Of a stretch of 64,000 nt of DNA, positions 11,144 to 51,283 are shown one piece after another. Under the pieces are notes generated by a model that was given only the letters and a program-made list of their open reading frames with translations, ran no database searches and was not told the DNA's origin. The stretch is taken from NCBI RefSeq assembly GCF_963576545.1, contig NC_083638.1:7483522-7547521 (forward strand), in the 5' to 3' direction. The stretch is from Limanda limanda (taxonomy: Eukaryota; Chordata; Actinopteri; Pleuronectiformes; Pleuronectidae). Each line of letters opens with the position of its first letter. The first letter of the stretch is position 1. A program made the translations under genes and the position numbers.

Positions 11144-13440
11144 GTAAACATGTCTCAGAGTTTGCTAATGGAACTCGACAACCTGAAACCCTGACTTGTC
11201 AGAAACTCAGTTTTATACAAATATTTCTTTGTCTTCAACTTTTTATCATGACATACGGGATGCGTTAACTTCTTCTTCTAAATCCTCTTCAGTTCTTCTT
11301 TTAGAGTCAGTGGCTACAAGTCAGATTTATCATTACGTTTGAAACTTCTTCACATTAGTTAAGTAGTTTTAGTTTTTTTGCAAATATAATAAAAGATCAT
11401 TCAACTTGTACAAGCCGCTGTTACTTTTGTTTTTATGAAAAACATGCATTTCATTTGTTCTAAAAATCTGAAATATTTGCACAACACAGTGGGGTAAAAT
11501 TTTTGAAAAATGCTCGATAAATAAAATGTATTAATCATTATTATTATTCCTACAGGAATCCAGTGCTCTGAGTAAGATGCCGTTTGTTGGTTGACTTGAA
11601 AATGTTTTCATTTGTTAATAGTTAAAATGCTGTTATTCCCTCAAAGGTAAAGTTTTACCACCATCACCAGAAGCCAAAATTGTGGTTGAGCTTGTTTGCT
11701 GGAACGTTTCCAAGCGATGAGGTAACTCTTTGCTCAGATGTTGATCTCTTGAAGCCACTCATTAAAAGCTCAGTCAATCCAAACCATCCACATTCCTTCA
11801 GCGACGACGTTAACTTGTTTATTTGCATATAAAAGCATCTAAACTCTATTGTATTTTTTTGAATTGCTTAATGAGATAAAGACATGATGACACGGAGTGC
11901 ACATACGATAAGAGTTAAAAGTACAAAGCATTTCAGTTAAATTAGAACTAAATCAAAGAACTGCTCACACAACTAAACATAATTTTTTACCACTATTAGT
12001 TAATCTCTTTCCTAACAGTCATGTCATGTCTCTTTGTGACCAGCAAAGCAAGTACAAGAACAAAAGAACAATCCTGACATTCATTGTTATTCAAGAAATA
12101 TAGAAAGAAAACAAAGCCGTCAATAACCAACGTGATTTATTTGTTTTTAAAAGTTTCTTTCTCAGTGTTTACTCGTTTGTTTGGTTTCTCTAAAATATTG
12201 AAAGGTCTTGATCTTACTTCCTGCCTCGAGAGAATGTTAGTTGGGATTTGGTGCAATAGAAGTTAAATTGAATTGAACTGAAATTTAATTGGTTCCTGCC
12301 AGACTCAGGCCCCACCCATCCACCGAGTTCGGAGGTAATTAGTTTGTTCCTTATTTTGCATAATCCTGCACAACGTACACACTTTACAGTATTCACCTTT
12401 TAATGTCGTCACTGGGCTTCATGTTCATGCTAAATGTCTGCTCAACACACATTTCCCTTGTAAGGCTGTAAAGATATGAAGTGAAATATTTTGTAACTAT
12501 ATATTATAAGAAATTCAACTTGTTAATTTCCTGCTTTTCTATCGTTGCAGGCGGCACCGTGATACTGTGAGGAAATGGGGGCTCGGCCTCTGTTTTGTGA
12601 TGGTGGTGCTCAGCTTACACTTTTTATACAACAGGTGAAAAAACTTCACGCTCTTCCTGAACAGCTGCAGAACTTTCTGTGTGAGATGATGTCATTTCAT
12701 TGCCAGAATCACCTCAATTTACTTCACTGTCATGACGACTTCTTTTGAAAGGTTCTTTAGATTTGTTTCCAATGAAGAAAACCCGCCGGTGCCCAGAGAG
12801 AAAGAAAAGAGGAGGAACAAAGAGGCCGACCTTAACTTTGGGTAAGAGATCTGACACTTGCACTGTAAACAATTGTATATTAACAGTTAACTGCAGGCAG
12901 CAGGGTTGCCTGCAGTTTACTGTTATTGTACAGTACTCATACTGTTATCAACTTTACAGTGTGTTACCATAGAAAACAAAATCAACTGAACAGTGCATTG
13001 CTGTATTTTCTTAAATTCACATTAAACTGCCGGCAGCAGGGTTGACAGGGATTTGACGTTTTCTTACTGTAACCATAATATACAGTTTAGTGCTGTCCAC
13101 ATACTAAAACACACTATAGTGCTGTGTTATTTTATATCTACAGTTTACAATTAGCATCAGTCTGTACATTACTATTATTTAAAATGTGTCACATAAAGAG
13201 ATAGCATTAATTGCTTATTCCCTATAACCCTATTACTCGTGCAGGGTGTAAAGAATACAAGTTAAATAAAGTGCAGCAACCAAAACATTCTATAAAAAAG
13301 AGGAGACTTAGATAAAACATGAGCACTTGATTTACCCAACATTTATTCATAGAAGGCGACTCCAATTGAAATACTTGCTGTTTTTGTTGATAGAAAACAG
13401 TTTCAAAATGTCAGCTATGCACAACAGAACATGACAGTTA

Positions 13441-14415
13441 AGGCCAATTTATGCCTCTCCGTTATTTCTATTACGGACAGATAAGACCGCCCTATCCGTC
13501 GTGAAACGTCCTCTCCGAGCGCCTCCGACAGCTTTTCGTACACGTCTGATTTTTCTAACTATCCGTCTTCATTTTGGAGACCCGACGGACCGCTCTTGGC
13601 TGTGATTGGTCCGCGAACGACATCATTTCCGTATGACGTCATTTCCGTATTTCCGGACCTCAAACTTTCTGTTTACTTGTAGCAACAAACACGAACACAA
13701 CTATGATTCTACGATTAATGTGACGTGTGTGTTAAGCCAGCGGAGTTGTCCGGCTGACGGTGGCTCGTTAGAGCACTGAGGGCATGTGTGCAGGGTCACA
13801 TACGGTTATAACGAGCTTTCAAAACGGCGCTAGCAGGCTAGGCTAGCGGGCTAGGCTAGCCACCATGCTAACTGCGGTGGTAACAGTGCAAGAACCCGCC
13901 GTCACGACTTTAATTCCACTTCTATCATGACACTGTTTCTATAATACCGTCAGGTTAGAAGCAAACACTGGGTAGTAGTTAGTGCCGGGAGTCCCTGCTG
14001 ACTGTGTGTGGAAGCTGGGGGGAGCTAGGTCCGGGTAGCTTCTAGCTACATGTAGCCTCAAGCAGATTCAAGCTGTGGAATCAGCAACACAGTTCGGAAA
14101 CAAGACCGGGGAACCGCTGCGCTAAGAAACGATTACATCAGCATCTTGACACGCTGGGTGTCACTTTATTTAGATCTGTTAGTTGCCATGGTTCAGTGTG
14201 TGGGACGCAAGCTAACATGTCAACAGAGACACGTGGACTTCTTCTTCCCAAATGGGGTAGGCTTCTCTGAGCTCGTCTTCCGTTGCGCCACCTATGGGTT
14301 TGGCGGGGAATTGTTTTTAGACGGATAGTCGTCGGAGAAGTAAAAATCAAAAAGACACTTTGTCTCCCGCTGAGACCTCTCCGAGAAACGGATACGTAGA
14401 AGTATATAAGAGCCT
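13441..14415. mobile_element. PIF/Harbinger-like non-autonomous DNA transposon in intron 3 of copy A
   Basis: A 975-bp insertion flanked by TTA duplications (13438-13440 and 14416-14418). Copies B and C show the empty site with a single TTA (28091-28093 in B). The ends are imperfect inverted repeats: AGGCCAATTTATGCCTCTCC on the left, and the complement of the right end reads AGGCTCTTATATACTTCTAC. A 3-bp TTA target duplication is characteristic of PIF/Harbinger. No transposase ORF is seen. Confidence 0.75.
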
Positions 14416-14999
14416 TTATCAGTATGTTCATTAAATGTGATAAAACCAATAAACCTTGTAAAACACTTGGAGAAATGATGCATCCTGACAATGCCAGTAT
14501 TAGGACAAAAACATTAATCGCACAAACATAATCTATAACAGGTGATAATTAAATACTATATGAAAGATTACTTAAAAAAAAAAAGTTAAATAAGAGTGCC
14601 TCCATCAGACAAGTCTCTTTAAAACTGTTAATTTAACAACAAAATGGCAGGAGTCGTGTCCTCTAAACACTGTCATTAGAACAGTATTGTGTGTGAAGCA
14701 CAGACGGAGGGAGCTCTGCAACTTGATTGCATGGAAGATCCACAAGTTACATTCATGAAGTAAACACATCCAATAACTGATCCAAATTTCTAACAGAGTG
14801 AAATAAAGTGAAGGATATTGGGTCAGCTCAGATACTCCATAATATACACAGTCACCTTCAAAAGCTTAAGTGATCAAATCCTACAATGGCATACTTGCCC
14901 TGGGACAAGTGAGTATGTTCCCTGTTGTTGACATAAAAAGGACGCATACCCACATATTGAAATATTTCATATTAAGTGGACAGGAGAACAAGAATATGA

Positions 15000-15440
15000 T
15001 TACATGAACGCAGTTGCATCGACGGACTCGTTTTGGTTTATGGTTCCACAAGGGTTGCGGGTGTTAATCCCCCGCCAGAACACTGGGCGGAGTAACGTGT
15101 TTTGTCGAAGACGACCTTAGAGACGTCTTTTTTGTGTGTGGCAGTCGTCGTTGACTGTTTATTTACATCACCACTGCTGCTCCTCATAGACTTTTTCTGG
15201 CTGACAAATCCGCCAGTCAGTGATGGGTTATACAAGTGGTCATACTTTCGGATCTTCTATTTGGTCTATATTTGTTCTTCTAAATCTTCAGTGATTTCTC
15301 CCTATGTTATGGGGCATGAAACCGGAAACTAGACTCCGGACGGGATGTAGTAAGCAGACCAATCACAGCCTTGCGGGCTGCGTGAGGCTTGCGTAGCTTT
15401 GTCGTATAGCTGGAAAAATTGGCGACTATAAATCGGCCTT
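15000..15440. mobile_element. Second Harbinger-like fragment in intron 3 of copy A
   Basis: The right end reads inward as AGGCCGATTTATAGTCGCC and is flanked by TAA, the same terminal style as the element at 13441. Homology to copies B and C resumes immediately after it ('taacacgtcaggttcac'). The left end could not be placed because B and C carry a different insertion at this point. Confidence 0.45.
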
Positions 15441-16707
15441 AACACGTCAGGTTCACATGTACATACAGTCAGAGTTGCAGAACATGATTAATTCAGATTG
15501 TTATCGAGCGTTAAACACACAAATCCCGCTGCCAAACATGTAGTGCAGGTTTGCTCAAGGAACAGCAGAATGACATCTCCGAGCATTGTTTGTCGTTTTT
15601 GTATTTCCTGAGAAGCAGAGTACAGAACAGATTTTCATCTTGTCTATTTCCAGGGCCAGACAGACGGTTAAAACAATGACATCCTGGAATGGCCCGATCA
15701 TGTGGAACGGGATATTTGACGGGAAGGCTTATGATGAGCTGCATATTCAACTCCAGTCATCCGTGGCTCTCACTGTGTTTGCTGTGGGCAGGTTTGTTTA
15801 CCCTGTGAATATTGTGACTGCTGAGATGCCGACATTTTCATTCGTCGTACTTTTTCCAAATGTGGGTGACGATTTAGAAACGCTACCTGACTCCAACTGA
15901 ACAAAGTGCAAATGATCAGTTGGACTATGGCACAGTCAATTTGTGTTTTGTTGTCTCTATCTCAGGTACCTGGATGCCTACTGCAAGGATTTCCTGACCT
16001 CAGCAGAACAACACTTTATGTCGGGGTTACCAGTGACGTACTACGTGTTTACAGATTCACCTGAGAAGGTACCGCAAATCAAGCTCGGCCCTAAGCGACA
16101 CCTCAAGGTTATCAAGGTGAAAATGTACACCAGACGGCAGGACATCTCTATGATGCGCATGAGTATGATATCGGATCTCATAGAATCAGAGATTGCTTGC
16201 AGCTTCAGATACATCTTCTGCTTCGATGTGGATCAAGTGTTTGAAGCGAGGTTCGGCTCAGAGGCTCTGGGGGATTCTGTGGCTTTGATTCACGGGCATT
16301 ATTACAAACTTCCAAAGGACCAGTGGAGCTATGACAAAAACAAGAAATCCACAGCTTTCATGGAAACTGGAGATTTCTACTACCATGCTGCCATCTTTGG
16401 AGGATTGTGTGCAAACGTGAAGAATCTGACAGACGCCTGCTACCTGAGCATCATGGAGGACAAAATAAATGACGTGGAAGCTGTGTGGCAAGATGAGAGT
16501 CACCTCAACAAGTACTTCTGGCTGAACAAACCAAGCAAGCTGCTCCCCCCCGAGTATTGCTGGGACTATAGTCATGGTGACAGGAGCGACATAAACATCA
16601 TACGCCTGAGATGGGCACCAAAACATTAAGATACACTTCGCACTAATGTCTGAATAACTTTGAAAAGATGGAGCCAATTCTTTTCAGAGGTCACGCTGAC
16701 TTTCACC

Positions 16708-23070: not shown

Positions 23071-23111
23071 CAAGCCTCCCGAACTCAGTCTCCCAGGGTG
23101 CAACATGTTTT

Positions 23112-24230
23112 CTTTGTTCTTGGAAAGCCAAGAAACTCAGCCTCCCAGGGGGAAACAGGTTTCATTCTTCTCCCAGGATGCCCAGAGGTGTGAAAAAAGC
23201 CACCAGGGTCAACTCCAATTGGTCACTCTGGCCCATGACCTGTGAGGTCACCGGGCCTATATAAGGGGACTTCTGCCCCTCTTCTATCTCTTTTTTCCAC
23301 AACTCTCCAAGGACAGCAGTCGGCCAGCCCTCTTCTCCTGCATTCGCCGAGGGGGGTCCGGGCTGCTCCAGATAATCTTCTCTTCCCACCCAACAACCGG
23401 AGGTCAGAGGTGCAGTTTCCAACTCATCTCTTCAAGGAAACCTCCACGCATCTCAAGCTTTTTCCAAACTCCTAGCAGCGACTCAATGTCCTGCAGGTAG
23501 GAACTAAGATTCAATAAGCAACTGAAGTGCACAGCTCAACAGCACCGCGAGGACTTCAACCTTCCGACCGAACCGGAGACGTCACAGGACTGCAACTGCA
23601 CAGCAACTTTCTCCCTTTCTAAAGACTGGTAACATACTGGGCTTAATAATTATACTGAGCTAAGCAAGACTGTTTATTTGATTCTGTGTGGTGTTTATAA
23701 GTTTGATATATGTGTGATATTGTGGTTAAAAGTTAAATGAAAGTAGGGTTAGTTTGTAATGCTCTTCACAAGCTTCCTTTGTAGGTCTCTCTGACTCATT
23801 ACCTGCTTAACATCAACACAGACGCATATCTCTACCTACTTATCTACTCCCCCACTCCAGAAGAAGGGGGGGGGGGGGGCTACCATCTTAGGAGCCCACA
23901 GGAAGGTGTTACTTTCTTGGTCAACAACCATTTTGAAAGCACCCTTATTTACATACACACACACAAATCTTTGTTTTAGTTCGTACTCTGTTAGTAATTT
24001 ATGTTTTATACTTTATTATATTCATAATAAATGTTTTTCTTTCACAAGTGTTCTTTCATTAATGTTGCATAAGGGAATTTTTCCAACCTCTACACTGTCA
24101 AGAACTCCATAAACCTTCACTGTTCATTATATAATCTGTAATAGTAAATATTAAGATTTCTAAGTGATCTAGATCTAAATGAGACTGATCTTAAACAATA
24201 AATTGGCTATCTTTTCCCTTCTTTGAAGGG
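23112..24230 (+). mobile_element. LTR-like module at the head of unit B
   Basis: Starts TGTTTTCTT, has CCAAT and TATA boxes near the 5' end and AATAAA signals (24026 and 24198 regions). It ends directly before TGGTGCCCC, which looks like a primer-binding site. A diverged antisense relative, ending with the same TGGTGCCCC, lies at 28.65 kb. It is absent from unit A, where the surrounding host DNA is continuous. Identification as an LTR is inference. Confidence 0.5.
23215..23496 (+). promoter_or_regulatory. CCAAT/TATA promoter and candidate first exon, unit B
   Basis: CCAAT at 23215-23219, TATATAAG at 23258-23265, then a pyrimidine-rich start region and a donor CAG|GTAGGA after 23496. Transcription from about 23290 would give a roughly 207-base untranslated exon that could splice to the ATG exon of copy B, 1.8 kb downstream. 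Confidence 0.5.
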
Positions 24231-24634
24231 TGGTGCCCCAAGAGAACTTTAACAAACTAAAGTTATGATTAAATATTTTAAATATTAATGTTTTATAGGT
24301 ATCACTCCTAACCATAATTGCACAACAACTGTAATGTCTTATTATAAATATGACATTGTATTGATTCAACATGTAGTACGTGAAATTTCTCTAGTGAATT
24401 CCTTATTTAAAAATGTTAATGCTAATCTCACGGTGTCCTGTCATTATTCTGTCTTTGTCAAAGTGTGAACACACACACACAGACACACATAAAGCGTATC
24501 ATTAGAGCTGGAACAGGTTTGGGAGGACACATAATTCCTCCTCTTCATCACGTCTCTGAAAAGAGGCAGGGCCATTCCGTGGTGAAGGAAATGATTCCCT
24601 CCCCTCAGTGAGAGGAACCACACCCTCTCTGCAG

Positions 24635-25325: not shown

Positions 25326-28300
25326 ATGAGGTAACTCTTTGCAAAGATATTCCTTTTTTGAAGCGATTCTTTATAAAGCTCTTGATCTTACTTGCTGCCT
25401 CCAGAGAAGGTAAGTTGTGAGTTGGTGCATTAGACGTTAAATTGAATTGAAGTGAACTGAAATTTAATTGCTACTTGCCAGACGCAGGCCCGACCCCTCC
25501 ACCGAGTTCGGAGGTAATTGATTTGTTCCTTTTTATGCGTAAACGTGCAAAACAACTGAAAACACAACCGTGTCGGTGGAGGTAATTAGTGCCCTTAGCT
25601 TTGATATATTTTAAAGTAGAATATCACTCAGTCGACAGCATTCATCCGCCAAGGCCTAACACACTCCCTTTACTTCAATCACTAAATTGCACACATTCAT
25701 AGATATCAGTTCCCTAAATGGGCCTGATTATAAGTTTCGTTGTAATCAGTCCATTAGCTTTTCCGTGATCCTGCTCGCTAACAGAGAAACAAAAAGACGC
25801 ACCATGGTGAAAACACAACCTCTTGGTTCTTCACAGGGCGTGGCACTTTACTTTTCCTTGTTGTTATTCTGTTTATCGCTGTGCTCTTGCTTTTATCGTA
25901 CACACTTTACAGTATTCACCTTTTAATATGTCGTCACTGTGCTTCATGTTCATGCTGAATGTCTGTTTAACACACATTTCACTTGTAAGGCTGTAAAGAT
26001 ATGACGTGAAATATTTTGTAACTATATATTATACAAATTCAACTTGTTCTTTTCCTGCTTTTCTATCGTTGCAGGCGGCACCGTGATACTGTGAGGAAAT
26101 GGGGGCTCGGCCTCTGTTTTGTGATGTTGGTGCTCAGCTTCCCCTTTTTATACAACAGGTGAAAAAACTTCACGCTCTTCCTGAACAGCTGCAGAACTTT
26201 CTGTGTGAGATGATGTCATTTCATTGCCAGAATCACCTCAATTTACTTCACTGTCTTGATGACGGTGGCTTTTTTTTTACAGATCTTTTAGATTTGTTTT
26301 CATTGAAGAAAATACGCCGGTGCCCAGAGAGAAAGAAGAGAGGAGGAACATAGATGCCGACCTTAACTTTGGGTAAGAGATCTGACACTTGCACTGTAAA
26401 CAATTGTCATGTATATTAACAGTTAACTGCTGGCAGCAGGGTTGCCTGCAGTTTACTGTTATTTTACAGTACTCACACTGTAATCAACTTTACAGTGTGT
26501 TACAGTAAAAAACTAAATCAACTGAACAGTGCATTGCTGTATTTTCTTAAATTCACATTAAACTGCGGGTAGCAGCGTTGACAGGGATTTATCGTTTTCT
26601 TACTGTAACCATAATATACAGTTTAGTGCTGTCCACATACTAAAACACACTATAGTACTGTGTTATCTTATATTGACAGTATACGATTAGCATCAGTCTG
26701 TACATTATTATTAGGACCTGAGCACCGAACAGAGAGTGAGACAGTGAGGCCCTATTGTAGGCAAATTCATTGGCTTTTTCAGGGCTTTGACATGCTCACA
26801 TTCTTACCAACATTTGCAGAAAATTTGAAAGTGGTGAAAATGTACGTATTCTGGAGTAATTTTCAATGGGCGTGGCAAAATGGCTCAACGGTGCCCCCCC
26901 GAGCCCCCTGAACGCGTTCACATTGACTGATCTTGACAAAAATCGATACACAGGAGTATCATGACCAGACAAACAAAAAGTCTAGATGTGCAATTTGAAA
27001 AACACAAAAGGAATCCCTTCATTCTCATATTACATTACATTTCATCTAGCTGACGCTTTTATCCAAAGCGACTTACAATAAGTGCATTCAACCCCTAGGG
27101 TACAAACCCAGAACAACAAGAATCAAGAAAGTACAATTTCTTCAAAAATAAAGCATAACTACAAAGTGCTATAAGTGAGTGCCATTTATAGTGAGTGCTG
27201 GGGTGTAACGTTTGACCATGTGCTGGATGTAGACTGGACCTGATCTGTTCACAGCACGGTACGCAAATACCAATGTTTTGAAACGGATGCGGGCAGCCAA
27301 TGGTAACCAGTGAAGGGAGCAGAGGAGCGGAGGAGTGCGAGTGAATTTAGGTTGGTTAAAAACCAGTCTAGCTGCTTCATTCTGAATGAGCTGCCAAGGT
27401 CTGATGGCACTAGCAGGTAGACCTGCCAGGAGGGAGTTAGAGTAGTATGGGCGTGACCATATGAAATGTCCTCAATGTCTTCACTGTTCAAAACGTTAAA
27501 GACATTTCCTTGAGCAACAGTCAACAGACAGAACATTGATATGCTGTTTCCTTTTCTTTTTTGTCATAAAATGAAAAATAGGCCATGCCACACAGATTAC
27601 GAAAAGGATGTTTATTTTTTACTTTTCTATGAGCGCAGTTAAACAGAAAAGTGATATATATTAACAGCAGTGGATCTGTACGGTTGATAATTCTCACGCT
27701 AAGATGAATTTAGAAATCAATGAAATTAGAAAGAACATCCTTTAAAATGAATGTCATTGTTCAGAATAGCACATCAAAATAGCGAACCAAGGTTTTGGTA
27801 AGGAGGAGTTTAATTTATAGGAATTGACTGTCATCCATTCTGCTATTGCATTAAATTACATTGTAACCCTATTACTCGTGCAGAGTGTGAAGAATACAAG
27901 TTCAATAAAATGCAGCAACCAAAACATTCTATAGAAAAGAGGAGACTTACAAAAAACATGATCACTTGATTTACCCAACATTTATTTATAGACGGCGACT
28001 CCAATTGAAATACTTGCTGTTTTTGTTGATAGAAACAAAGTTGTCCATTACAGTTTCAAAATGTCAGCTATGCACAACAGAACATGACAGTTATCAGTTT
28101 GTTCATTAAATGTGATAAAACCAATAAACCTTGTAAAACACTTGGAGAAATTATGCATCCTGACAATGCCAACAACATTAATCCCACAAATTTAATCTAT
28201 AACAAATGATAATTAAATACTATATGAAAGATTACTTTTTTAAAAATGTTAAATGGTAAACCCCTGGTTAAATAAGAGTGACTCTATCAGACAAGTCTCT

Positions 28301-29016: not shown

Positions 29017-29047
<31 letters not shown>

Positions 29048-34918: not shown

Positions 34919-36037
34919 TTTTCTTTTCTTGGAAAGCCAAGAAACTCAGCCTCCCAGGGGTAAACAGGTTTCATTCTTCTCCCAGAATGCCCAGAGGTGT
35001 GAAAAAAGCCACCAGGGTCAACTCCAATTGGTCACTCTGGCCCATGACCTATGAGGTCACCGGGCCTATATAAGGGGACTTCTGCCCCTCTTCTATCTCT
35101 TTTTTCGACAACTCTCCAAGGACAGCAGTCGGCCAGCCCTCTTCTCCTGCATTCGCCGAGGGGGGTCCTGGCTGCTCCAGCAAATCTTCTCTTCCCACCC
35201 AACAACCGGAGGTCAGAGGTGCAGTTTCCAACTCATCTCTTCAAGGAAACCTCCACGCATCTCAAGCTTTTTCCAAACTCCTAGCAGCGACTCAATGTCC
35301 TGCAGGTAGGAACTAAGATTCAATAAGCAACTGAAGTGCACAGCTCAACAGCACCGCGAGGACTTCAACCTTCCGACCGAACCGGAGACGTCACAGGACT
35401 GCAACTGCACAGCAACTTTCTCCCTTTCTAAAGACTGGTAACATACTGGGCTTAATAATTATACTGAGCTAAGCAAGACTGTTTATTTGATTCTGTGTGG
35501 TGTTTATAAGTTTGATATATGTGTGATATTGTGGTTAAAAGTTAAATGAAAGTAGGGTTAGTTTGTAATGCTCTTCACAAGCTTCCTTTGTAGGTCTCTC
35601 TGACTCATTACCTGCTTAACATCAACACAGACGCATATCTCTACCTACTTATCTACTCCCCCACTCCAGAAGAGGGGGGGGGGGGGCTACCATCTTAGGA
35701 GCCCACAGGAAGGTGTTACTTTCTTGGTCAACAACCATTTTGAAAGCACCCTTATTTACATACACACACACAAATCTTTGTTTTAGTTCGTACTCTGTTA
35801 GTAATTTATGTTTTATACTTTATTATATTCATAATAAATGTTTTTCTTTCACAAGTGTTCTTTCATTAATGTTGCATAAGGGAATTTTTCCAACCTCTAC
35901 ACTGTCAAGAACTCCATAAACCTTCACTGTTCATTATATAATCTGTAATAGTAAATATTAAGATTTCTAAGTGATCTAGATCTAAATGAGACTGATCTTA
36001 AACAATAAATTGGCTATCTTTTCCCTTCTTTGAAGGG
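34919..36037 (+). mobile_element. LTR-like module at the head of unit C
   Basis: Duplicate of 23112-24230, ending before TGGTGCCCC. Same evidence and same uncertainty. Confidence 0.5.
35024..35305 (+). promoter_or_regulatory. CCAAT/TATA promoter and candidate first exon, unit C
   Basis: CCAAT at 35024-35028, TATATAAG at 35067-35074, donor CAG|GTAGGA after 35305. Confidence 0.5.
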
Positions 36038-36441
36038 TGGTGCCCCAAGAGAACTTTAACAAACTAAAGTTATGATTAAACATTTTAAATATTAATGTTT
36101 TATAGGTATCACTCCTAACCATAATTGCACAACAACTGTAATGTCTTATTATAAATATGACATTGTATTGATTCAACATGTAGTACGTGAAATTTCTCTA
36201 GTGAATTCCTTATTTAAAAATGTTAATGCTAATCTCACGGTGTCCTGTCATTATTCTGTCTTTGTCAAAGTGTGAACACACACACACAGACACACATAAA
36301 GCTTATCATTAGAGCTGGAACAGGTTTTGGAGGACACATAATTCCTCCTCTTCATCACGTCTCTGAAAAGAGGCAGGGCCATTCCGTGGTGAAGGAAATG
36401 ATTCCCTCCCCTCAGTGAGAGGAACCACACCCTCTCTGCAG

Positions 36442-37132: not shown

Positions 37133-40100
37133 ATGAGGTAACTCTTTGCAAAGATATTCCTTTTTTGAAGCGATTCTTTATAAAGCTCTTGATCTTACTT
37201 GCTGCCTCCAGAGAAGGTAAGTTGTGAGTTGGTGCATTAGACGTTAAATTGAATTGAAGTGAACTGAAATTTAATTGCTACTTGCCAGACGCAGGCCCGA
37301 CCCCTCCACCGAGTTCGGAGGTAATTGATTTGTTCCTTTTTATGCGTAAACGTGCAAAACAACTGAAAACACAACCGTGTCGGTGGAGGTAATTAGTGCC
37401 CTTAGCTTTGATATATTTTAAAGTAGAATATCACTCAGTCGACAGCATTCATCCGCCAAGGCCTAACACACTCCCTTTACTTCAATCACTAAATTGCACA
37501 CATTCATAGATATCAGTTCCCTAAATGGGCCTGATTATAAGTTTCGTTGTAATCAGTCCATTAGCTTTTCCGTGATCCTGCTCGCTAACAGAGAAACAAA
37601 AAGACGCACCATGGTGAAAACACAACCTCTTGGTTCTTCACAGGGCGTGGCACTTTACTTTTCCTTGTTGTTATTCTGTTTATCGCTGTGCTCTTGCTTT
37701 TATCGTACAAACTTTACAGTATTCACCTTTTAATATGTCGTCACTGTGCTTCATGTTCATGCTGAATGTCTGTTTAACACACATTTCACTTGTAAGGCTG
37801 TAAAGATATGACGTGAAATATTTTGTAACTATATATTATACAAATTCAACTTGTTCTTTTCCTGCTTTTCTATCGTTGCAGGCGGCACCGTGATACCGTG
37901 AGGAAATGGGGGCTCGGCCTCTGTTTTGTGATGTTGGTGCTCAGCTTCCCCTTTTTATACAACAGGTGAAAAAACTTCACGCTCTTCCTGAACAGCTGCA
38001 GAACTTTCTGTGTGAGATGATGTCATTTCATTGCCAGAATCACCTCAATTTACTTCACTGTCTTGATGACGGTGGCTTTTTTTTTACAGATCTTTTAGAT
38101 TTGTTTTCATTGAAGAAAATACGCCGGTGCCCAGAGAGAAAGAAGAGAGGAGGAACATAGATGCCGACCTTAACTTTGGGTAAGAGATCTGACACTTGCA
38201 CTGTAAACAATTGTCATGTATATTAACAGTAAACTGCTGGCAGCAGGGTTGCCTGCAGTTTACTGTTATTTTACAGTACTCACACTGTAATCAACTTTAC
38301 AGTGTGTTACAGTAAAAAACTAAATCAACTGAACAGTGCATTGCTGTATTTTCTTAAATTCACATTAAACTGCGGGTAGCAGCGTTGACAGGGATTTATC
38401 GTTTTCTTACTGTAACCATAATATACAGTTTAGTGCTGTCCACATACTAAAACACACTATAGTACTGTGTTATCTTATATTGACAGTATACGATTAGCAT
38501 CAGTCTGTACATTATTATTAGGACCTGAGCACCCAACAGAGAGTGAGACAGTGAGGCCCTATTGTAGGCAAATTCATTGGCTTTTTCAGGGCTTTGACAT
38601 GCTCACATTCTTACCAACATTTGCAGAAAATTTGAAAGTGGTGAAAATGTACGTATTCTGGAGTAATTTTCAATGGGCGTGGCAAAATGGCTCAACGGTG
38701 CCCCCCCGAGCCCCCTGAACGCGTTCACATTGACTGATCTTGACAAAAATCGATACACAGGAGTATCATGACCAGACAAACAAAAAGTCTAGATGTGCAA
38801 TTTGAAAAACACAAAAGGAATCCCTTCATTCTCATATTACATTACATTTCATCTAGCTGACGCTTTTATCCAAAGCGACTTACAATAAGTGCATTCAACC
38901 CCTAGGGTACAAACCCAGAACAACAAGAATCAAGAAAGTACAATTTCTTCAAAAATAAAGCATAACTACAAAGTGCTATAAGTGAGTGCCATTTATAGTG
39001 AGTGCTGGGGTGTAACGTTTGACCATGTGCTGGATGTAGACTGGACCTGATCTGTTCACAGCACGGTACGCAAATACCAATGTTTTGAAACGGATGCGGG
39101 CAGCCAATGGTAACCAGTGAAGGGAGCAGAGGAGCGGAGGAGTGCGAGTGAATTTAGGTTGGTTAAAAACCAGTCTAGCTGCTTCATTCTGAATGAGCTG
39201 CCAAGGTCTGATGGCACTAGCAGGTAGACCTGCCAGGAGGGAGTTAGAGTAGTATGGGCGTGACCATATGAAATGTCCTCAATGTCTTCACTGTTCAAAA
39301 CGTTAAAGACATTTCCTTGAGCAACAGTCAACAGACAGAACATTGATATGCTGTTTCCTTTTCTTTTTTGTCATAAAATGAAAAATAGGCCATGCCACAC
39401 AGATTACGAAAAGGATGTTTATTTTTTACTTTTCTATGAGCGCAGTTAAACAGAAAAGTGATGTATATTAACAGCAGTGGATCTGTACGGTTGATAATTC
39501 TCACGCTAAGATGAATTTAGAAATCAATGAAATTAGAAAGAACATCCTTTAAAATGAATGTCATTGTTCAGAATAGCACATCAAAATAGCGAACCAAGGT
39601 TTTGGTAAGGAGGAGTTTAATTTATAGGAATTGACTGTCATCCATTCTGCTATTGCATTAAATTACATTGTAACCCTATTACTCGTGCAGAGTGTGAAGA
39701 ATACAAGTTCAATAAAATGCAGCAACCAAAACATTCTATAGAAAAGAGGAGACTTACAAAAAACATGATCACTTGATTTACCCAACATTTATTTATAGAC
39801 GGCGACTCCAATTGAAATACTTGCTGTTTTTGTTGATAGAAACAAAGTTGTCCATTACAGTTTCAAAATGTCAGCTATGCACAACAGAACATGACAGTTA
39901 TCAGTTTGTTCATTAAATGTGATAAAACCAATAAACCTTGTAAAACACTTGGAGAAATTATGCATCCTGACAATGCCAACAACATTAATCCCACAAACTT
40001 AATCTATAACAAATGATAATTAAATACTATATGAAAGATTACTTTTTTAAAAATGTTAAATGGTAAACCCCTGGTTAAATAAGAGTGACTCTATCAGACA

Positions 40101-40823
40101 AGTCTCTTTAAAACTATTAATTTAACAACAAAATGGCAGGATACGTTGTCCTCTAATCACTGTCATTAGAACAGTATTGTGTGTGAAGCACAGACGGAGG
40201 GAGCTCTGCAACTTGATTGCATGGAAGATCCACAAGTTACATTCATGAAGTAAAAACATCCAATAACTGATCCAAATTTCTAACAGAGTGAAATAAAGTG
40301 AAGGATATCGGGTCAGCTCAGATACTCCATAATATACAGAGTAACCTTTAAAAGCTTAAGTGATCAAATCCTACAATGGCATACCTACAATGAAAACAAT
40401 AAAATGATCAATTAAGAATGAAACAATCTGTAATTATTACTTATCGTAGCGGGGCACCACCCTGGTTACAGGGACCAACAAGTCAATCTATAAATAACAG
40501 TCTCAGTTGATAAATGTTAAATGAATAATCTCAATATTTAACATGAATGATTATATGATAAACAATGAAAGGATTTATGTTAATGCGCAGGCTATCATAA
40601 CCCAGCTGCATTCACATACATATGCACAAATAATCACAGAATAACGATACTTTAATTACAAAAGGATTTATTAAAAAGGAAAATAAAGTTAATGTTATTC
40701 AATGATTCATCATTTTAACAAACTCCAATATTTCAAAGATAACAACGGCACTTATCACAATTTAGAACACATGTAAACATGTAAAACCTATGGTCTATCT
40801 TTGTGTGTATGTGTGTCTGTGTC

Positions 40824-40854
<31 letters not shown>

Positions 40855-43800
40855 AAGGGGAAGTGGCAATGACGTATGACGCAGTCACGTGGTGATGTAG
40901 TCTGGTCGCATCCAAGATGGCGGTACCTTCACGTTATTCAAAACAGAGGCCTATGTTAATGACAACGTGAGGCCGAAGCCAAAATGGCGGTGGGCCACGT
41001 GAGTTACACAAAGGAATCGTCAGACAAAGGTGTTTCTTTATCTCTGCTTTCTTTTGGCGCCAAATGGCGGCGAGCTGCGTTCAGGCTCTCCAAGTATAGA
41101 TTTAGCTATGTGATGTGAAATGTGTGACTGCCAGTGTTGCCACAGTTACTTTGAAAAAGTAACTTAGTTCCTTTACAGATTACTTTATTTTAAAAGTAAC
41201 TAAGTTAGACTAAGTTACTTTATTAGTTACATTCAGCAGCTGCCGACAACACCCCCGCGGCCTCAACATAAAAATGACAACCGGTTTTGCCAACACTCAC
41301 TTTATTAGAAGTGCATTTTTAAAAGTAATGTACAGAACAACAATGTATCTCCTGACATTTTAAGTTGAACTTAAAAACTATTTCCTGAAAAAAAACATTT
41401 TTTTCTAAAATAAAGACAGTCTTTCTTGACCTGACATATTTAACACTGTAATGGCAAAACTGACTATTTATGATCTACATTGTTTATAAATGTAGCTATT
41501 AAATTCTTTTCAACATGTTTTATGAACATTGTACCGGTTGTTCACAGCATTAGAGAAGCAATGAGTGGTTTTACAAAACAAAACAAGTGTATAACACCTA
41601 GGGTTGCAAAATTCCGGGAATTTTCAAAGTTGGAAACTTATATACGGAATATACGGAAATTAATGGGAATTAACTGGAAATGTTGTGGGTAATTTATACT
41701 TACTGTATTTACCTTGTTATATACAGAGAAATATGAACATTTTGTTTCGTCATAGGCTGATTTGAGCCCTGAGGAAACTTTGGGAACTTGACTATACGCT
41801 TCTGCATCGTTGTGTCATTCTTAACATAGATCTTTGTACAGTATTTGCAAATGTACACAGCCTTTCCTTCTACATTGGATGGGGTGAAATGTCTCCACAC
41901 ATGAGATAGTGCACGTGGCATTGTTCTGTAGAATAAGATGAGAAAAAAGTATGTTAAAAAACACTAATGCAATGCCAGAGATATAAATAGTTAGCCAAAC
42001 AATTGGAATCGTCTGTAAAAATATTTTATAATTTGATGTCTAAATGAATGGAAATAGGCTAGATGAACAGATGAACAATCCTCAATCAACATGCTAATAT
42101 ATTTTCATCGAAACTTACCTGACTATAGTCCTGCACACTACAGCAGGCCTCAATAGCCTGCTGTAGTATGCAGGATGCTGGGAATTATCTGTGCATGTGA
42201 TGGAAGAATGCACAGTGGAGGGTTGAAATTCAACGTGCAGCGTGTGCTGCATTCCATACATCTTTAAAATAGAGTTTTGAATAATGTTTTTATATCTCAG
42301 CGCTTAATTTGTGTATTTTTTCTTTTTTTTTCAAAATTCCCGAGCTCAACTTCCCATGGAAAGTTTCTGGAAAGTTTCCGGAAATTTACCGGAAACTTTC
42401 TGCCCCTTTGCAACCCTAATAACACCACATGTAAGCTGATATCATGTCTACATTTGTAACTTTGGCCTAATCTTATGTAGTAATCGTATGTTATGAAGTG
42501 GAGTGGGGCGAGTGGTCCGCACCAGTTCTCAGTCAGCTGCTAGGCGCCAGCCGAGGCGCACCGCCGGAATGCCCCCCCCCCGCGAAGGGAAGGTTCCCCC
42601 AGCGGGTGCCGTAGCTGAGGTGATCCGCGAGAAGGGCCCGAGTCGCCACCGCGGACCGCTGTACCCGGTTACCTCCAACCGGTCCCCGCCTTCTGCACCG
42701 GCGACGGACACCACCCGCGGTCCAAGAGAAAGAAAGCCCCCGCACCAGCGACGCCGTGAGGCACCGCGGACGAGGACCCCCCCCCAAAAAAACGATTTCT
42801 CCCCCAGCCGCGGCACATGCCCAGCGTGCCAGAAATCAAATATACATTTTACTATTAATGACAAAATAGTAATGCACAGTGACTTGGACAAGTAACTTTA
42901 ATCTGATTACTGGTTTGGAAATAGTAACGCGTTAGATTACTCTTTACTGAAAAAAGTGGTCAGATTAGAGTTACGCGTTACTAAGTAACGCGTTACCGGC
43001 ATCACTGGTGACTGCAGATCAGAACGTGTGTGTAAGCAGGTTTAGGAGAAGAGAGAGAGAGAGAAAGAACATGCAAGAAAAGAACAGTGAAGCTCTTAAA
43101 AACACGCCGGAGGTAAGTTCACAGTGATTTCACCACTTGGGGCCCAAATAAGCGTTGTGCATCGATATTTTGATCGGTAAAATCTATGCAAACTTAAATG
43201 GACGTTAGCAGTGCGGCCAGAGGCGCTTCTAAACGCTAAGGCACTTTAACACAATGAACACGGCCGTAAAACCGGAAGTGCCGGCTCGTCACAGCTAAAC
43301 GAGAGAGACACGGAGGTCTCCAACAAACATATACACTCAAAAACAGCTAACACGCTAAGTATTAAAACTAGTCTCTGCCCAGACAATATAGCCTCTTACT
43401 GTGACCGTGGTTTCGTAGGATGCGTGCGCGTTGGCGCGAATGTCCCGGAAGTCCAGTGAAAGTATCGTGGCCCTTAAGCTCTGTGTCGCTGGTTCGTCTG
43501 AGGCAGCGGGCGTCGTGCTGGGCCAAATAGGAGCGGATTCTCTCGTGCTCCTTGATGGGATGATGCTTCGTCCTTCTTCTGCAGAGATGTGCGGCTGCTT
43601 GGGGCCGCTTGTAGATCGTGTGGAAAGAAAAGTCTTTGTGGAACTCGGCCCGCGAGTGAATTTCCTGTGCTAATCTTTTCAAGTTAAAATAACAAAAAGG
43701 TCCTATCAAAATAAAACTTTGACTGAAGATAAAAGAACGAAAATAAAATTAAAAGAATTAAAACAAATGTTTGTGGTTGCCCCCTTTAGCAGCTGTAACA

Positions 43801-45384
43801 TTTGGAAAGACCCGCAGGTCTTGGTCGAAGTCTTTTAGCAGGGAAATGGCAGCGATTTCTTTGATTTCAGCAGTTTTAAGCTACCTGAAAAGTTCCAGCC
43901 TCCTCAAGGTGGGGCTATGGGGTTCAGCCAATGGAATGTCAGAGTTCAACTCTCAGGGAGCGGTTAGAAACACAGTGGGGGTCCCTGAAGGAGCCCAGGA
44001 AATGCTTCCCCCACTAGGAGAGGCTCCACGTTGTCTGAGGAAGGTGTGGATTAAGAGTGAAAACCAGTAGAACTGTTTTTTTGGAATGTATTGTAGGAGA
44101 AAAAGTTTATAAGCCATTGTGTGGTAGTCAATACACTGGGATCTCCCCCAACACTGTTGTACTCAAATTCAGACCTAACACGTCAGGTTCACGTCTACAT
44201 ACTGTCAGAGTTGCAGAACATGACTAATTCAGATTGTGATCGAGCGTTAATCACTCTTATCCCGCTGCCAAAATTATAGTGCAGGTTTGCTCAAGGAACA
44301 GCAGAATGACATCTCCGAGCATTGTTTGTCTTTTTTGTATTTCCTGAGAACCAGGTACAGAACAGATTTCATCTTGTCTATTTCCAGGGCCAGACAGACG
44401 GTTAAAACAATCACATCCTGGAATTCCCCGATCATGTGGAACGGGACATTTGACGGGAAGGCTTATGATGAGCTGCATATTCAACTCCGGTCGTCCGTGG
44501 CTCTCACTGTGTTTGCTGTGGGCAGGTTTGTTGACCCTGTGAATATTGTGACTGCTGAGATGCGGTCATTTTCATTTGTCATACTTTTTCCAAATGTGGT
44601 GACGATTTAGAAACGATACCTGACTCCAACTGAACAAAGTGCAAAGGATCAGTTGGACTATGGCACAGTCAATTTCTGTTTTGCTGTCTATCTCAGGTAC
44701 CTGGATGCCTACTGCAAGGATTTCCTGACCTCAGCAGAACAACACTTTATGTCGGGGTTACCAGTGACGTACTACGTGTTTACAGATTTACCAGAGAAGG
44801 TACCGCAAATTGAGCTCGGCCCCCAGCGAAGCCTCAAGGTTATCAAGGTGAAAATGTACACCAGATGGCAGGACATCTCTATGATGCGCATGAGTATGAT
44901 ATCGGATCTCATAGAATCGGAGATTGCTTCCAGCTTCAGATACATCTTCTGCTTCGATGTGGATCAAGTGTTTGAAGCGAGGTTCGGCTCAGAGGCTCTG
45001 GGGGATTCTGTGGCTTTGCTCCACGCGCATTACTACAAACTTCCAAAGGACAGGTTCACCTATGACAGAAACAAGAAATCCACAGCCTTCATGGAAACTG
45101 GAGATTTCTACTACCATGCTGCCATCTTTGGAGGATTGTGTGCAAACGTGAAGAATCTGACAGACGCCTGCTACCTGAGCATCATGGAAGACAAAATAAA
45201 TGAAGTGGAGGCTCTGTGGCACGATGAGAGTCACCTCAACAAGTACTTCTGGCTGAACAAGCCAAGCAAGCTGCTCCCCCCCGAGTATTGCTGGGACTAT
45301 AGTATTGGTGACAGGAGCGACATAAACATCGTCCGCCTGAGATGGGCACCAAAACATTACGATACACTTCGCGCTAATGTCTGA
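37133..45384 (+). CDS. GT6-family glycosyltransferase, copy C (alpha-1,3-galactosyltransferase-like)
   Basis: Exons: 37133-37137 (ATGAG), 37882-37965, 38090-38179, 44388-44525, 44697-45384 (TGA); 334 residues. Protein is identical to copy B except S137L (TDLPEK) and D306 in EYCWDY, where C has the family-typical residue. All catalytic motifs are present: RWQD, DVD (193-195), HAA (246-248), WHDESHLNKY, and an intact C-terminal tail. The signal anchor and stem are unchanged, so a Golgi type II enzyme is expected, with Gal as the likely donor sugar by family comparison. It sits on the second near-identical 11.8-kb unit, so short reads will not separate it from B. Confidence 0.9.
38507..38797 (+). 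repeat. Dispersed repeat in intron 3 of copy C
   Basis: Duplicate of 26700-26990. Confidence 0.6.
38832..39247 (-). mobile_element. L2-like LINE 3' end remnant, copy C intron 3
   Basis: Duplicate of 27025-27440, with the same disrupted frames. Confidence 0.55.
41599..42418. mobile_element. Nested hAT transposon, unit C
   Basis: ataacacc duplications at 41591-41598 and 42419-42426, with the same inverted ends as in unit B. About 10 bp shorter than the B copy near its left end. Confidence 0.9.
42513..42815 (-). rRNA. 28S rRNA gene fragment in the hAT (unit C), degenerate
   Basis: Duplicate of 30706-31010, with a shorter poly-C run. Confidence 0.75.
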
Positions 45385-46129: not shown

Positions 46130-46695
46130 CCTTCCTATAGGCGACAAAGACGGTTGCCTAGAGCGCCACATAGAGGGGGGCGCCAAAAACTGCGCCGAGC
46201 AAAAATAAAATATATATCTTTTTTATTTTCTTTTTGCTGGGCAGAGTTTTTTGCATCCCTTTTTCTCCAACCAATATTTTGATATTAAAAAATATTTAAC
46301 AAAAGGGGAAAATTTGGCAAAAATCTAAAGAGGTAGGGGTGTTGTCAGAACATGCTAGCGCACTCCTCCACTCCCTGAGATGCCCAGACATGCAAAAGAC
46401 GTCCTAACAAACATTAGATCCTGGCTGAAGTTCAAGCACTCTCTACTCTGGTACTGGAAGAAAATAATAGATATCTGGACACTCTTATTATAACTTGACA
46501 GAAATAAAACACAACGCACTGCAAGAACGGGAGACAAGCATGATCATTTTGATGTTATCAGTGTTTAATTTTGAAAATGTATATTGTAGCGAGGACTTGT
46601 TAGTCTTAGAAGTTGAAGTTTCAGGATGTTATGACTTTTACTATATTATCTTACAATTGCATTATGTTTTGGGAATGTGCTTTTATTTTAATGTG
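46130..46695 (+). mobile_element. Truncated hAT-like fragment at the end of unit C
   Basis: Duplicate of 34353-34918, again ending at the unit junction. Confidence 0.5.
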
Positions 46696-47811
46696 TTTTC
46701 TTTTCTTGGAAAGCCAAGAAACTCAGCCTCCCAGGGGTAAACAGGTTTCATTCTTCTCCCAGAATGCCCAGAGGTGTGAAAAAAGCCACCAGGGTCAACT
46801 CCAATTGGTCACTCTGGCCCATGACCTATGAGGTCACCGGGCCTATATAAGGGGACTTCTGCCCCTCTTCTATCTCTTTTTTCGACAACTCTCCAAGGAC
46901 AGCAGTCGGCCAGCCCTCTTCTCCTGCATTCGCCGAGGGGGGTCCTGGCTGCTCCAGCAAATCTTCTCTTCCCACCCAACAACCGGAGGTCAGAGGTGCA
47001 GTTTCCAACTCATCTCTTCAAGGAAACCTCCACGCATCTCAAGCTTTTTCCAAACTCCTAGCAGCGACTCAATGTCCTGCAGGTAGGAACTAAGATTCAA
47101 TAAGCAACTGAAGTGCACAGCTCAACAGCACCGCGAGGACTTCAACCATCCGACCAAACCGGAGACGTCACAGGACTGCAACTGCACAGCAACTTTCTCC
47201 CTTTCTAAAGACTGGTAACATACTGGGCTTAATAATTCTACTGAGCTAAGCAAGACTGTTTATTTGATTCTGTGTGGTGTTTATAAGTTTGATATATGTG
47301 TGATATTGTGGTTATAAGTTAAATGAAAGTAGGGTTAGTTTGTAATGCTCTTCACAAGCTTCCTTTGTAGGTCTCTCTGACTCATTATCTGCTTCACATC
47401 AACACAGACACCTCGCATATCTCTACCTACTTATCTACTCCCCCACTCCAGAAGAAGGGGGGGGGCTACCATCTTAGGAGCCCACAGGAAGGTGTTACTT
47501 TCTTGGTCAACCACCATTTTGAAAGCACCCTAATTTACATACACACACACACACATCTTTGTTTAAGTTCGTACTCTGTTAGTAATTTGTGTTTTATACT
47601 TTATTATATTCATAATAAATGTTTTGCTTTCACAAATGTTCTTTTATTAATGTTGCATAAGTGAATTTTGCCAACCTCTACACTGTCAAGAACTCCGTAA
47701 ACCCTCACTGGTCATTACATAATCTGTAATAGTAAATATTGAGAGTGAACTAGATCTAAATGAGACTGATCTTAATCAATAAATTGGCTAACTTTTCCCT
47801 TCTGTGAAGGG
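46696..47811 (+). mobile_element. LTR-like module at the head of unit D
   Basis: Nearly identical to units B and C for the first 0.4-0.5 kb, then more diverged. Ends before TGGTGCCCG at 47812. Confidence 0.5.
46801..47082 (+). promoter_or_regulatory. CCAAT/TATA promoter and candidate first exon, unit D
   Basis: CCAAT at 46801-46805, TATATAAG at 46844-46851, donor CAG|GTAGGA after 47082. Confidence 0.5.
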
Positions 47812-48279
47812 TGGTGCCCGACAGAACTTTAACAAACTAAAGTTATGATTTAATGTTTATATTTTATTTTGATAACCAAATTTATTGAAGGCCTAAAGGC
47901 ACACCATATTATGGCATCACTCCTAACCATTATTGCACAACAACTGTAATATCTAATTATAAATATGACATTGTATTGATTCAAAATGTAGTACGTGAAA
48001 TTTCTTTTTATTTTGGACTTTTTTTTTTTAGGAGTGAATTCCTTATTTAAAAGTGTTAATGCTAATCTCATGGTGTCCTGTCATTATTCTGTCTTTGTCA
48101 AAGTGTGAACACACACACACACACATATAAAGCTTATCATTAGAGCTGGTTTAGGTTTGTTGTTTTTGAGGATACATATTTCCTCCTCATCGTCACGTCT
48201 CTGAAAAGAGGCAGGGCTGTTCCGTGGTGAAAAACCTGATTCCCTCCCCTCAGTGAGAGGAACCACGCCCTCTCTGCAG

Positions 48280-48469
48280 GTAGCAGACACACCTGCTGAA
48301 TTAGTGGCAGTGGTCGGGGAAACAGTGATAACTTCCTTGACTCTTACACGGCGGCTTTTGCCATTTGGATCGTGACACCAGAGGAAAATCCAAACTCAGC
48401 TTGCTGACCGGCGTTGCTTGTTCATCTTCACCAAATCCACGCCGGTGAAAAAAACCTTTACACAGGAAG
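48280..48469 (+). other. Candidate 5' untranslated exon, copy D
   Basis: Acceptor ccctctctgcag and donor GAAG|GTAAAC, as in copy A. Confidence 0.3.
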
Positions 48470-49027: not shown

Positions 49028-51283
49028 ATGAGGTAACTCTTTGCTCAGATATTCCTTTTTTGAAAAGATTCTCTAAAGCTCTTGAACTTACTTCCTGCCT
49101 CGAGAGAATGTTAGTTGTGAGTTGGTGCAATAGACGTTAAATTGAATTGAACTGAAATTGAATTGCTTCCTGCCAGACTCAGGCCCCACCCCTCCGCCGA
49201 GTTCAGAGGTAATTGGTTTGTTCCTTTTTTTTGCGTAATCCTACAAAACAAGTGATAACACAACCGTGTCGGTGGAGGTAATTAGTGGCCTTTGCTTTGA
49301 TATATTTTAAAATAGAATATCACTCAGTAGACAGCATTCATCCTCGGAGGCCTAACACTCTTCCTTTACTTCAATCACTAAGTTCCACTTTACTTTTCCT
49401 TGTTATTCTGTTTATCGCTGTGCTCTTGCTTTTATCGTACAGACTTTACAGTATTCACCTTTTAATATGTCGTCACTGTGCTTCATGTTCTTGCTGAATG
49501 TCTCTTCAACTTACATTTCACTTGTAAGGCTGTAAAGATATGAAGTGAAATATTTTGTAACTATATATTATAAGAAATTCAACTTGTTCATTTCCTGCTT
49601 TTCTATCGTTGCAGTCGGCTCCGAAATACTGTGACGAAATGGGGGCTCGGCCTCTGTTTTGTGATGTTGGTGCTCAGCTTCCCCTTTTTATACACCAGGT
49701 GAAAAAACTTCACGCTCTTCCTGAACAGCTGCAGAACTTTCTGTGTGAGATGATGTCATTTCATTGCCAGAATCACCTCAATTTACTTCACTGTCATGAC
49801 AATGTTTTTTTTTTTAAAAGATCCTTTAGATTTGTTTCCATTGAAGAAAACCCGCCGCTGCCCAGAGAGAAAGAAGAGAGGAGGAACATAGATGCCGACC
49901 TTAACTTTGGGTAAGAGATCTGACCCTCGTGCTAAACTAAACAGATCACAGAGCGAAGCAAAGTTTTTGAAGCGCAGGTTGTCTCATGGAACAGCAGCGA
50001 GCTTTGAGGTAACACAAATCACTTCATCTCAGCTTGGTGGATCCGGACTTCCCTGATTTTCATCCGTCTTAAATGGAAGAACGGAAGTTATATTTTCTGC
50101 GAAAACAAACTACAGATAAAGATCTTCCAGACGTTTCACTCCGTCGCACATCTTATTGTTATGATTGGTTGTATATTCATCCATTTATAATAAATCTTGC
50201 AAATTGAGTTTCGAGACTGAGGCTTCAAATTAATCTGTTCATCTTCATCGTCAACTTTGTTTTCATATTTCATCTAATTCCAGGGCCAGACGGAAGGTTA
50301 AAACAATGACATCCTGGAATGGACCGATCATGTGGAAGGGGATATTTGACGGGAAGGCTTATGATGAGCTGCATATTCAACTCCGGTCGTCCGTGGCTCT
50401 CACTGTGTTTGCTGTGGGCAGGTTTGTTTACCCTGTGAATATTGTGACTGCTGAGATGCAGACATTTTCATTCGTCATACTTTTTCCAAATGTGGGTGAC
50501 GATTTAGAAACGCTACCTGACTCCAACTGAACAAAGTGCAAATGATCAGTTGGACTATGGCACAGTCAATTTGTGTTTTGTTGTCTCTATCTCAGGTACC
50601 TGGATGCCTACTGCAAGGATTTCCTGACCTCAGCAGAACAACACTTTATGTCGGGGTTACCAGTGACGTACTACGTGTTTACAGATTCACCAGAGAAGGT
50701 ACCGCAAATCAAGCTCGGCCCTAAGCGACACCTCAAGGTTATCAAGGTGAAAATGTACACCAGATGGCAGGACATCTCTATGATGCGCATGAGTATGATA
50801 TCGGATCTCATAGAATCGGAGATTGCTTCCAGCTTCAGATACATCTTCTGCTTCGATGTGGATCAAGTGTTTGAAGCGAGGTTCGGCTCAGAGGCTCTGG
50901 GGGATTCTGTGGCTTTGATCCACGCGTATTTCTACAAACTTCCAAAGGAAGAGTGGAGCTATGACAAAAACAAGAAATCCACAGCCTTCATGGAAACTGG
51001 AGATTTCTACTACCATGCTGCCATCTTTGGAGGATTGTGTGCCAACGTGAAGAATCTGACAGACGCCTGCTACCTGAGCATCATGGAGGACAAAATAAAT
51101 AACGTGGAGGCTCTGTGGCACGATGAGAGTCACCTCAACAAGTACTTCTGGCTGAACAAACCAAGCAAGCTGCTCCCCCCCGAGTATTGCTGGGACCATA
51201 GTTATGGTGACATAAGCGACATAAACATCATCCGCCTGAGATGGGCACCAAAACAATACGATACACTTCGCACTAATGTCTGA
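49028..51283 (+). CDS. GT6-family glycosyltransferase, copy D (alpha-1,3-galactosyltransferase-like)
   Basis: Exons: 49028-49032 (ATGAG), 49615-49698, 49821-49910, 50284-50421, 50596-51283 (TGA); 334 residues. The N-terminus diverges from the others (MSRLRNTVTKWG), followed by the same signal anchor; the stem is RSFRFVSIEENPPLPREKEE. Motifs RWQD, DVD, HAA, WHDESHLNKY and the YDTLRTNV tail are intact. Catalytic-domain variants (IKLGPKRHLKV, WSYDKNKKS) are shared with copy A, not with B and C, while its upstream DNA matches B and C. Intron 3 is only 373 bp and free of transposons, perhaps the ancestral state. The 3' flank is unlike the other copies and lacks their AATAAA block, marking the distal edge of the array. 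Confidence 0.9.

Follow-up and report, generated by a model that had tools for sequence, protein, structure and literature searches.

The 64,000-nucleotide window examined here, C3:7483522-7547521 of the 717-Mb genome of the common dab (Limanda limanda), contains no N and holds four head-to-tail genes of glycosyltransferase family 6 (GT6) between the ATG at position 11717 and the end of the last stop codon at 51283. We propose that these genes belong to a young tandem cluster of the fish A3GALT2 type (isogloboside-3 synthase-type GT6), in which a short loop was re-tuned under positive selection in copies 4 and 5 toward a different acceptor, and of which copy 1 is dead or impaired. Judged from the sequence, we give this reading a probability of roughly 0.6.

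A tandem array of A3GALT2-type genes

All four window copies have coding exons of 5, 84, 90, 138 and 688 bases with identical phases and GT/AG boundaries, and copies 2 to 5 each read through 334 codons without a stop. From the conserved exons and splice sites we infer that the five exons are spliced together. The gene copies are the following:

11717..16653, + strand: copy 1, decaying; coding exons 11717-11721, 12551-12634, 12752-12841, 15654-15791 and 15966-16653
25326..33589, + strand: copy 2, intact, 334 amino acids; coding exons 25326-25330, 26075-26158, 26283-26372, 32593-32730 and 32902-33589; loop HAHYY..FTYD, typical of flatfish
37133..45384, + strand: copy 3, intact; coding exons 37133-37137, 37882-37965, 38090-38179, 44388-44525 and 44697-45384
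49028..51283, + strand: copy 4, intact; coding exons 49028-49032, 49615-49698, 49821-49910, 50284-50421 and 50596-51283; derived loop IHAYFY..WSYD
C3:7770995-7774949, - strand: copy 5, complete and intact; inverted, some 236 kb away from copy 4
C3:7776714-7776851: relic in which exon 4 survives together with intron 4 and the initial bases of exon 5

A preliminary description of the window had noted four genes in one orientation with equal exon lengths and phases, and complete five-exon models were indeed obtained for 4/4. The count of four holds for the window, but the array as a whole comprises at least five genes plus the exon-4 relic. The lengths of the last two exons are close to the mammalian pattern. 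Of the annotated Limanda proteins, P0003 covers 82% of the query and matches copy 3 without a difference throughout that part; its 5′ end departs from our model, with another first exon at 42569, inside intron 3. P0005, at the copy-4 locus, joins exon 1 straight to exon 4. The exons 2 and 3 that it skips include a hydrophobic stretch, read by eye only, in exon 2.

The last exons of the four window copies match Glyco_transf_6 (PF03414) over profile positions ∼81–312 of 313, with E values between 7.3e-90 and 9.9e-84. With these values chance is no explanation. The array, its family and its exon structure are confirmed as real. Among solved structures, bovine alpha-1,3-galactosyltransferase is the best relative (E 9.4e-84; 132/238 aligned residues identical). 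DVD and the donor triad HAA, previously reported for every copy, were found in 4/4 window copies and extend to copy 5: DVD and Glu283 are present in 5/5 dab copies, E283 of copy 2 aligning to bovine E317 and ABO E303, as is HAA at the equivalent of ABO 266–268. Homologue listings comprised the best 120 of 1193 and the best 120 of 514 matches; HAA occurred in 114/120 homologues, NAA in one, and five gave no pattern match. RWQD and WHDES are intact in copies 2 to 5. Going by family and motifs, the copies would encode Golgi type II alpha-1,3-galactosyltransferases, and the intact ones would still use UDP-galactose as donor.

In a tree of 46 proteins, 39 of them hand-picked from 120 listed matches, the five dab copies group with Platichthys, then Hippoglossus, then Paralichthys, as one orthologue group; a placement of the copies in different groups, the outcome against which a phylogeny had been suggested as a check, is not supported. 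Full-length similarity of copy 3 is 88% to Platichthys flesus and 82% to Hippoglossus stenolepis. A second A3GALT2-type gene of the dab genome (C4:5984862) is placed in another group of fish proteins. An LRP-type gene with low-density lipoprotein (LDL) receptor repeats (8 matches, C3:7695230-7712374) is situated between copies 4 and 5, and a FAM83 gene lies ∼20 kb from the C4:5984862 gene. The available part of PMC5571153 places A3GALT2 of fish at two loci, with LRP4/NELL1 as neighbours of the first and FAM83E/EMP3 and ZNF362/TRIM62 as neighbours of the second. We file the array as fish A3GALT2-type, not ABO, on account of the tree grouping and because the neighbouring genes (a candidate LRP4 for the array, FAM83 for the C4 gene) fit these published loci. 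The initial label of a GGTA1/ABO-family array was therefore right as to GT6 and too loose beyond it. Naming the genes ABO or GGTA1 is ruled out by the donor triad (HAA, with neither LGG nor MGA), by the loop and by the published gene history, in which, according to the same portion of PMC5571153, GGTA1 arose within mammals from A3GALT2.

Amino-acid differences cluster in a predicted acceptor loop

Exon 5 carries 32 amino-acid positions that vary among the five copies, and 10/32 fall in codons 214–230. In the window this variable, predicted acceptor-side loop lies at:

16288..16338, + strand: loop codons 214-230 of copy 1
33224..33274, + strand: loop codons 214-230 of copy 2
45019..45069, + strand: loop codons 214-230 of copy 3
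50918..50968, + strand: loop codons 214-230 of copy 4

Shuffling of positions reached the observed clustering in 14/20000 trials with a 17-codon window, in 20/20000 with 14 codons and in 73/20000 with 20 codons; with positions weighted by family variability, the scan P was 0.0018–0.004. The rate of nonsynonymous change (dN) in the loop exceeds the synonymous rate (dS) of the coding sequence (CDS) ∼5-fold both for copies 2 and 4 (0.284 vs 0.057) and for copies 2 and 5 (0.362 vs 0.073), and the loops of copies 2 and 4 differ by 0 synonymous changes. In neutral simulations under a simple equal-rates model, the observed maximum was matched in 1/1000 runs for copies 2 and 4, 0/1000 for copies 2 and 5, 32/1000 for copies 1 and 5, and 1000/1000 for copies 2 and 3. 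For copies 4 and 5 it was matched in 13/1000, yet the loop holds only 5/11 changes of the best window of that pair. This clustering looks like selection.

The loop of copies 2 and 3, LHAHYYKLPKDRFTYD, is exactly that of Hippoglossus, and HAHYY and FTYD are kept in 6/6 other flatfish proteins looked at. I214, W226 and S227, in contrast, are common to copies 1, 4 and 5, whose loop was not seen in those six proteins. These residues recur in only 3, 1 and 2, respectively, of 168 homologues (the 173 fetched, without P0001, P0003, P0005, P0006 and P0007, which are close or own sequences or, in two cases, odd or long-branched ones). Position 217 is H in copies 1 to 3, Y in copy 4 and G in copy 5, with G217 in 4/168 homologues; together, positions 217/218 read H/Y in copy 2, Y/F in copy 4 and G/F in copy 5. 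Loop positions 220, 223, 224 and 225 vary freely across the family. A second variable stretch covers codons 306–318 of exon 5 (51194-51232 in copy 4), where position 309 is I, H, Y or M among the copies vs I in 157/167 homologues. Differences in the same loop were also observed between proteins of two other fishes, apparently encoded on one contig in each: P0043/P0046 of Etheostoma cragini (HAWYY/HAGFY) and P0074/P0081/P0086 of Melanotaenia boesemani (HAHFY/HADFY/HAGYY).

Position 218 aligns to bovine Trp250 and ABO Phe236 and position 217 to bovine Trp249, and since 217 adjoins 218 it corresponds to ABO 235. According to the accessible portions of the respective sources, codon 250 (Trp250) belongs to the acceptor-binding sites and is subject to diversifying selection in primates (PMC5164903), binding of N-acetyllactosamine by the bovine enzyme depends critically on Trp residues (PMC4202792), and Gly235/Ser235 is one of four residues by which A and B transferases are told apart (PMC4692239). 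Because the loop positions match bovine Trp249/Trp250 and ABO 235, re-tuning of acceptor choice via the loop appears the likeliest reading. Copies 2 and 3 would then retain the ancestral acceptor preference, and in copies 4 and 5, as well as in copy 1 before its decay, positive selection would have shifted the preference to another acceptor glycan. An AlphaFold2 model of P0005 (28 aligned rows) was poor, with a mean predicted local distance difference test score of 56.6, and was not used as evidence.

Several points weigh against acceptor re-tuning. The clustering is not uniform, a scan with a 10-codon window giving 1325/20000, and the simulations were not significant for copies 1 and 2 (221/1000) or copies 1 and 4 (933/1000). 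Moreover, the 17-codon window was picked after seeing the data, the pairs are not independent, and dN/dS over the whole CDS is below 1 in 10/10 pairs (0.10–0.99). As to the published enzymes, the part of PMC5164903 at hand reports that Trp250-to-Phe in the squirrel monkey has hardly any effect on activity, in which the Ggta1 sites identified there as selected are said to play no part, and the corresponding part of PMC4692239 assigns residue 235 to recognition of the donor rather than of the acceptor.

Ordinary birth-and-death duplication, with functionally equivalent copies and loop differences due to relaxed constraint or drift, would account for part of these data. It is the published model for the GT6 family, as far as the available text of PMC5571153 goes. 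A whole-CDS dN/dS of 0.55–0.99 outside the pair of copies 2 and 3 is in keeping with weak constraint, decay has already begun in one copy, an exon-4 relic exists, and the loop includes the four freely varying positions. Relaxation does not, however, predict a loop dN several-fold above dS, nor does it predict changes at the near-invariant positions 214, 226 and 227 with DVD, HAA, RWQD and WHDES intact in copies 2 to 5. We regard this alternative as rather unlikely, though it deserves to be taken seriously.

Copy 1 carries lesions in its predicted active-site lid

The decaying member noted in the preliminary description proved to be copy 1, with an early TAA and the replacements W163R and H281Q. 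The TAA at 16627-16629 (codon 327) shortens the protein by 8 residues, and W163R (16135-16137) and H281Q (16489-16491) affect positions at which W and H were scored in 168/168 homologues. W163 aligns to bovine Trp195 and is the counterpart of human ABO Trp181, since W163 and Trp181 each precede the DVD motif, counted to its first Asp, by 30 residues. The stop removes R331, the equivalent of ABO Arg352, and codon 327 itself corresponds to ABO His348. In the part of PMC4692239 available to us, the active site is closed by Trp181 stacking on Arg352, a contact needed for full activity, and the C-terminal histidine (His348) bonds the acceptor. The equivalents of Trp181 and Arg352 are present in copies 2 to 5 and both are lost in copy 1, which still has DVD, HAA and the catalytic Glu. 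Given the lost lid residues (W163R and the removal of R331) and H281Q, copy 1 is very probably inactive: its lid would be unable to close, leaving the enzyme catalytically dead or badly impaired. Copy 1 would thus represent a natural lid-loss mutant.

Growth and age of the array

An alignment of the units of copies 2 and 3 spans 11,879 bases and contains 68 mismatches, ∼45 of which lie in the first 500 bases, and the two proteins differ at 2 amino acids. Each of copies 2, 3 and 4 is preceded by a homologous repeat:

23100..24280, + strand: left-flank repeat of copy 2, first substrate of the unequal crossing-over
34907..36085, + strand: recombinant left-flank repeat of copy 3, with a switch near 35.15-35.4 kb
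46684..47862, + strand: left-flank repeat of copy 4, second substrate of that event

For its first ∼360 aligned columns the copy-3 flank is identical to the copy-4 flank, and thereafter to the copy-2 flank. From this switch we conclude that copies 2 and 3 were produced by unequal crossing-over between homologous flanks. This duplication is much younger than the others; dS is 0.024 for copies 2 and 3 and 0.057–0.081 among copies 1, 2, 4 and 5. Beyond the first 500 aligned bases the two units differ at ∼23 of 11,379 positions, a range expected of alleles, so that an assembly artefact, in which two haplotypes of one gene were laid in tandem, has to be weighed. Against this stand the absence of N from the window and, above all, the clean recombinant of copy-4 and copy-2 sequence in the copy-3 left flank, exactly as unequal crossing-over predicts. 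From this clean recombinant we judge such a duplication in the assembly very unlikely. In any case, it would leave copies 1, 4 and 5, which are far more divergent, unaffected.

Informative sites among copies 1, 2, 4 and 5 suggest further exchange among the copies. In the promoter block, 10 sites unite copies 1 and 5, 5 unite copies 1 and 4, and 4 unite copies 1 and 2, whereas the corresponding numbers in the exon 4–5 block are 3, 12 and 3; the conflict (10:5 vs 3:12) has an uncorrected Fisher P of 0.025. In addition, 2/7 coding differences between copies 2 and 3 are common to copies 3 and 4, which weakly suggests a small conversion tract in copy 3. Since recombination among the copies is likely from the site conflict, the derived loop could itself have been imported by gene conversion, or could stem from an old allelic or paralogous lineage, its excess dN then reflecting the age of the tract. 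The loop of Sander lucioperca P0058, VHAYFYKLPKDMWSYDKN, is strikingly similar to IHAYFYKLPKEEWSYDKN of copy 4. With the variable stretches removed, however, Sander groups with Perca (89/77) and not with dab, and for this reason its loop, from the single W226 homologue of 168, looks convergent or anciently shared. Furthermore, TGGAGCTATGACA was found in 4/27 fetched dab loci (the window itself not being counted), all of which are copies of the array: L002 and L009 are copy 5, L004 is copy 4 and L006 is copy 1. A converted tract should also bring synonymous changes, and the loops of copies 2 and 4 show none. We therefore hold importation of the loop to be improbable.

The five dab copies form a clade with support of 99/93 for full proteins and 59/78 for exons 4–5. 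When the two variable stretches were removed, Platichthys, represented by one protein from a cluster of 5 members, broke this clade, though not significantly (approximately unbiased test, p-AU 0.123). Compared with Hippoglossus and Paralichthys, the lineage-specific expansion proposed at the outset thus stands; against Platichthys flesus the answer changes with the columns used, and a dab-only expansion cannot be claimed. Tandem duplication alone does not produce the inverted position of copy 5 beyond the LDL-receptor/LRP-type gene, which implies that an inversion or a transposition also took place.

Comparison with other GT6 systems

The array shares with fish A3GALT2 its orthologue group, the HAA triad and an LRP-type neighbour, LRP4 being the flanking gene of one fish A3GALT2 locus in the available part of PMC5571153; it departs from it in having at least five complete copies. 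Multi-copy GT6 genes are already known in fish, up to 10 GBGT1 genes being reported for zebrafish in the same portion of PMC5571153. The GBGT1-type arrays, however, belong to another GT6 branch, have a catalytic domain spread over several exons and carry the triads CGG or AMG. The dab genome also holds such a set, larger than the present one, at C3:3583516-3788397 (L018-L027), on C10 (L013), C11 (L014-L015) and C17 (L016-L017). Its catalytic domain extends over several exons, the donor sites found by pattern read CGG in 5/10 and AMG in 5/10, and among solved structures the human ABO transferases are closest to the one gene compared. A divergent GT6-like single frame of 335 codons, L012 (region C4:15181509-15182513, - strand), has DID in place of DVD and lacks an HAA-type triad. 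An open frame on the - strand between copies 1 and 2 (18276-19358) matches DUF1759 (E 1.4e-13) and has a CCHC-like stretch; it is presumably a retrotransposon remnant, and its stretch 18279-19358 was the sole Pfam match among flank open reading frames in 9 stretches outside the last exons. In the literature listings inspected we noticed no publication that deals with a GT6 array of a flatfish; Turcot-Dubois 2007, which concerns how GT6 evolved over the long term between fishes and mammals, may bear on the subject.

Bovine GGTA1 and the dab copies have in common DVD, HAA and the equivalent of Glu317, and differ in the loop, which is QAWWY in the bovine enzyme vs HAHYY in copy 2. The portion of the review PMC8601398 at hand describes fish as lacking the alpha-gal epitope, and on that account the dab product is unlikely to be this mammalian epitope. 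With human ABO A/B transferase the copies share the GT6 fold family, the alignment of position 217 to ABO 235 and, in copies 2 to 5, the lid equivalents; unlike ABO, with LGG (A) or MGA (B), they have HAA, and their diversity lies between loci, not alleles. More tentatively, the array could be a locus-encoded counterpart of ABO-type variation, in which the UDP-galactose donor is kept and duplicates are driven apart at residues responsible for choosing or placing the acceptor (the equivalents of ABO 235 and bovine Trp249/250), so that each fish would make several alpha-galactosylated glycans. As the same positions differ between the Etheostoma and between the Melanotaenia duplicates, this process may have recurred across spiny-rayed fish.

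The alpha-gal epitope is said to be absent in fish (PMC8601398, in the part available), yet intact HAA-type genes are kept, which makes the product of the HAA-type GT6 enzymes of fish a point of interest. Nature here supplies a ready-made experiment on acceptor choice, in the form of nearly identical enzymes whose differences lie mainly in the predicted acceptor loop. If the copies do make different glycans, which might then have a role on mucosal surfaces, tandem duplication would be linked to host-surface diversity by locus, not by allele.

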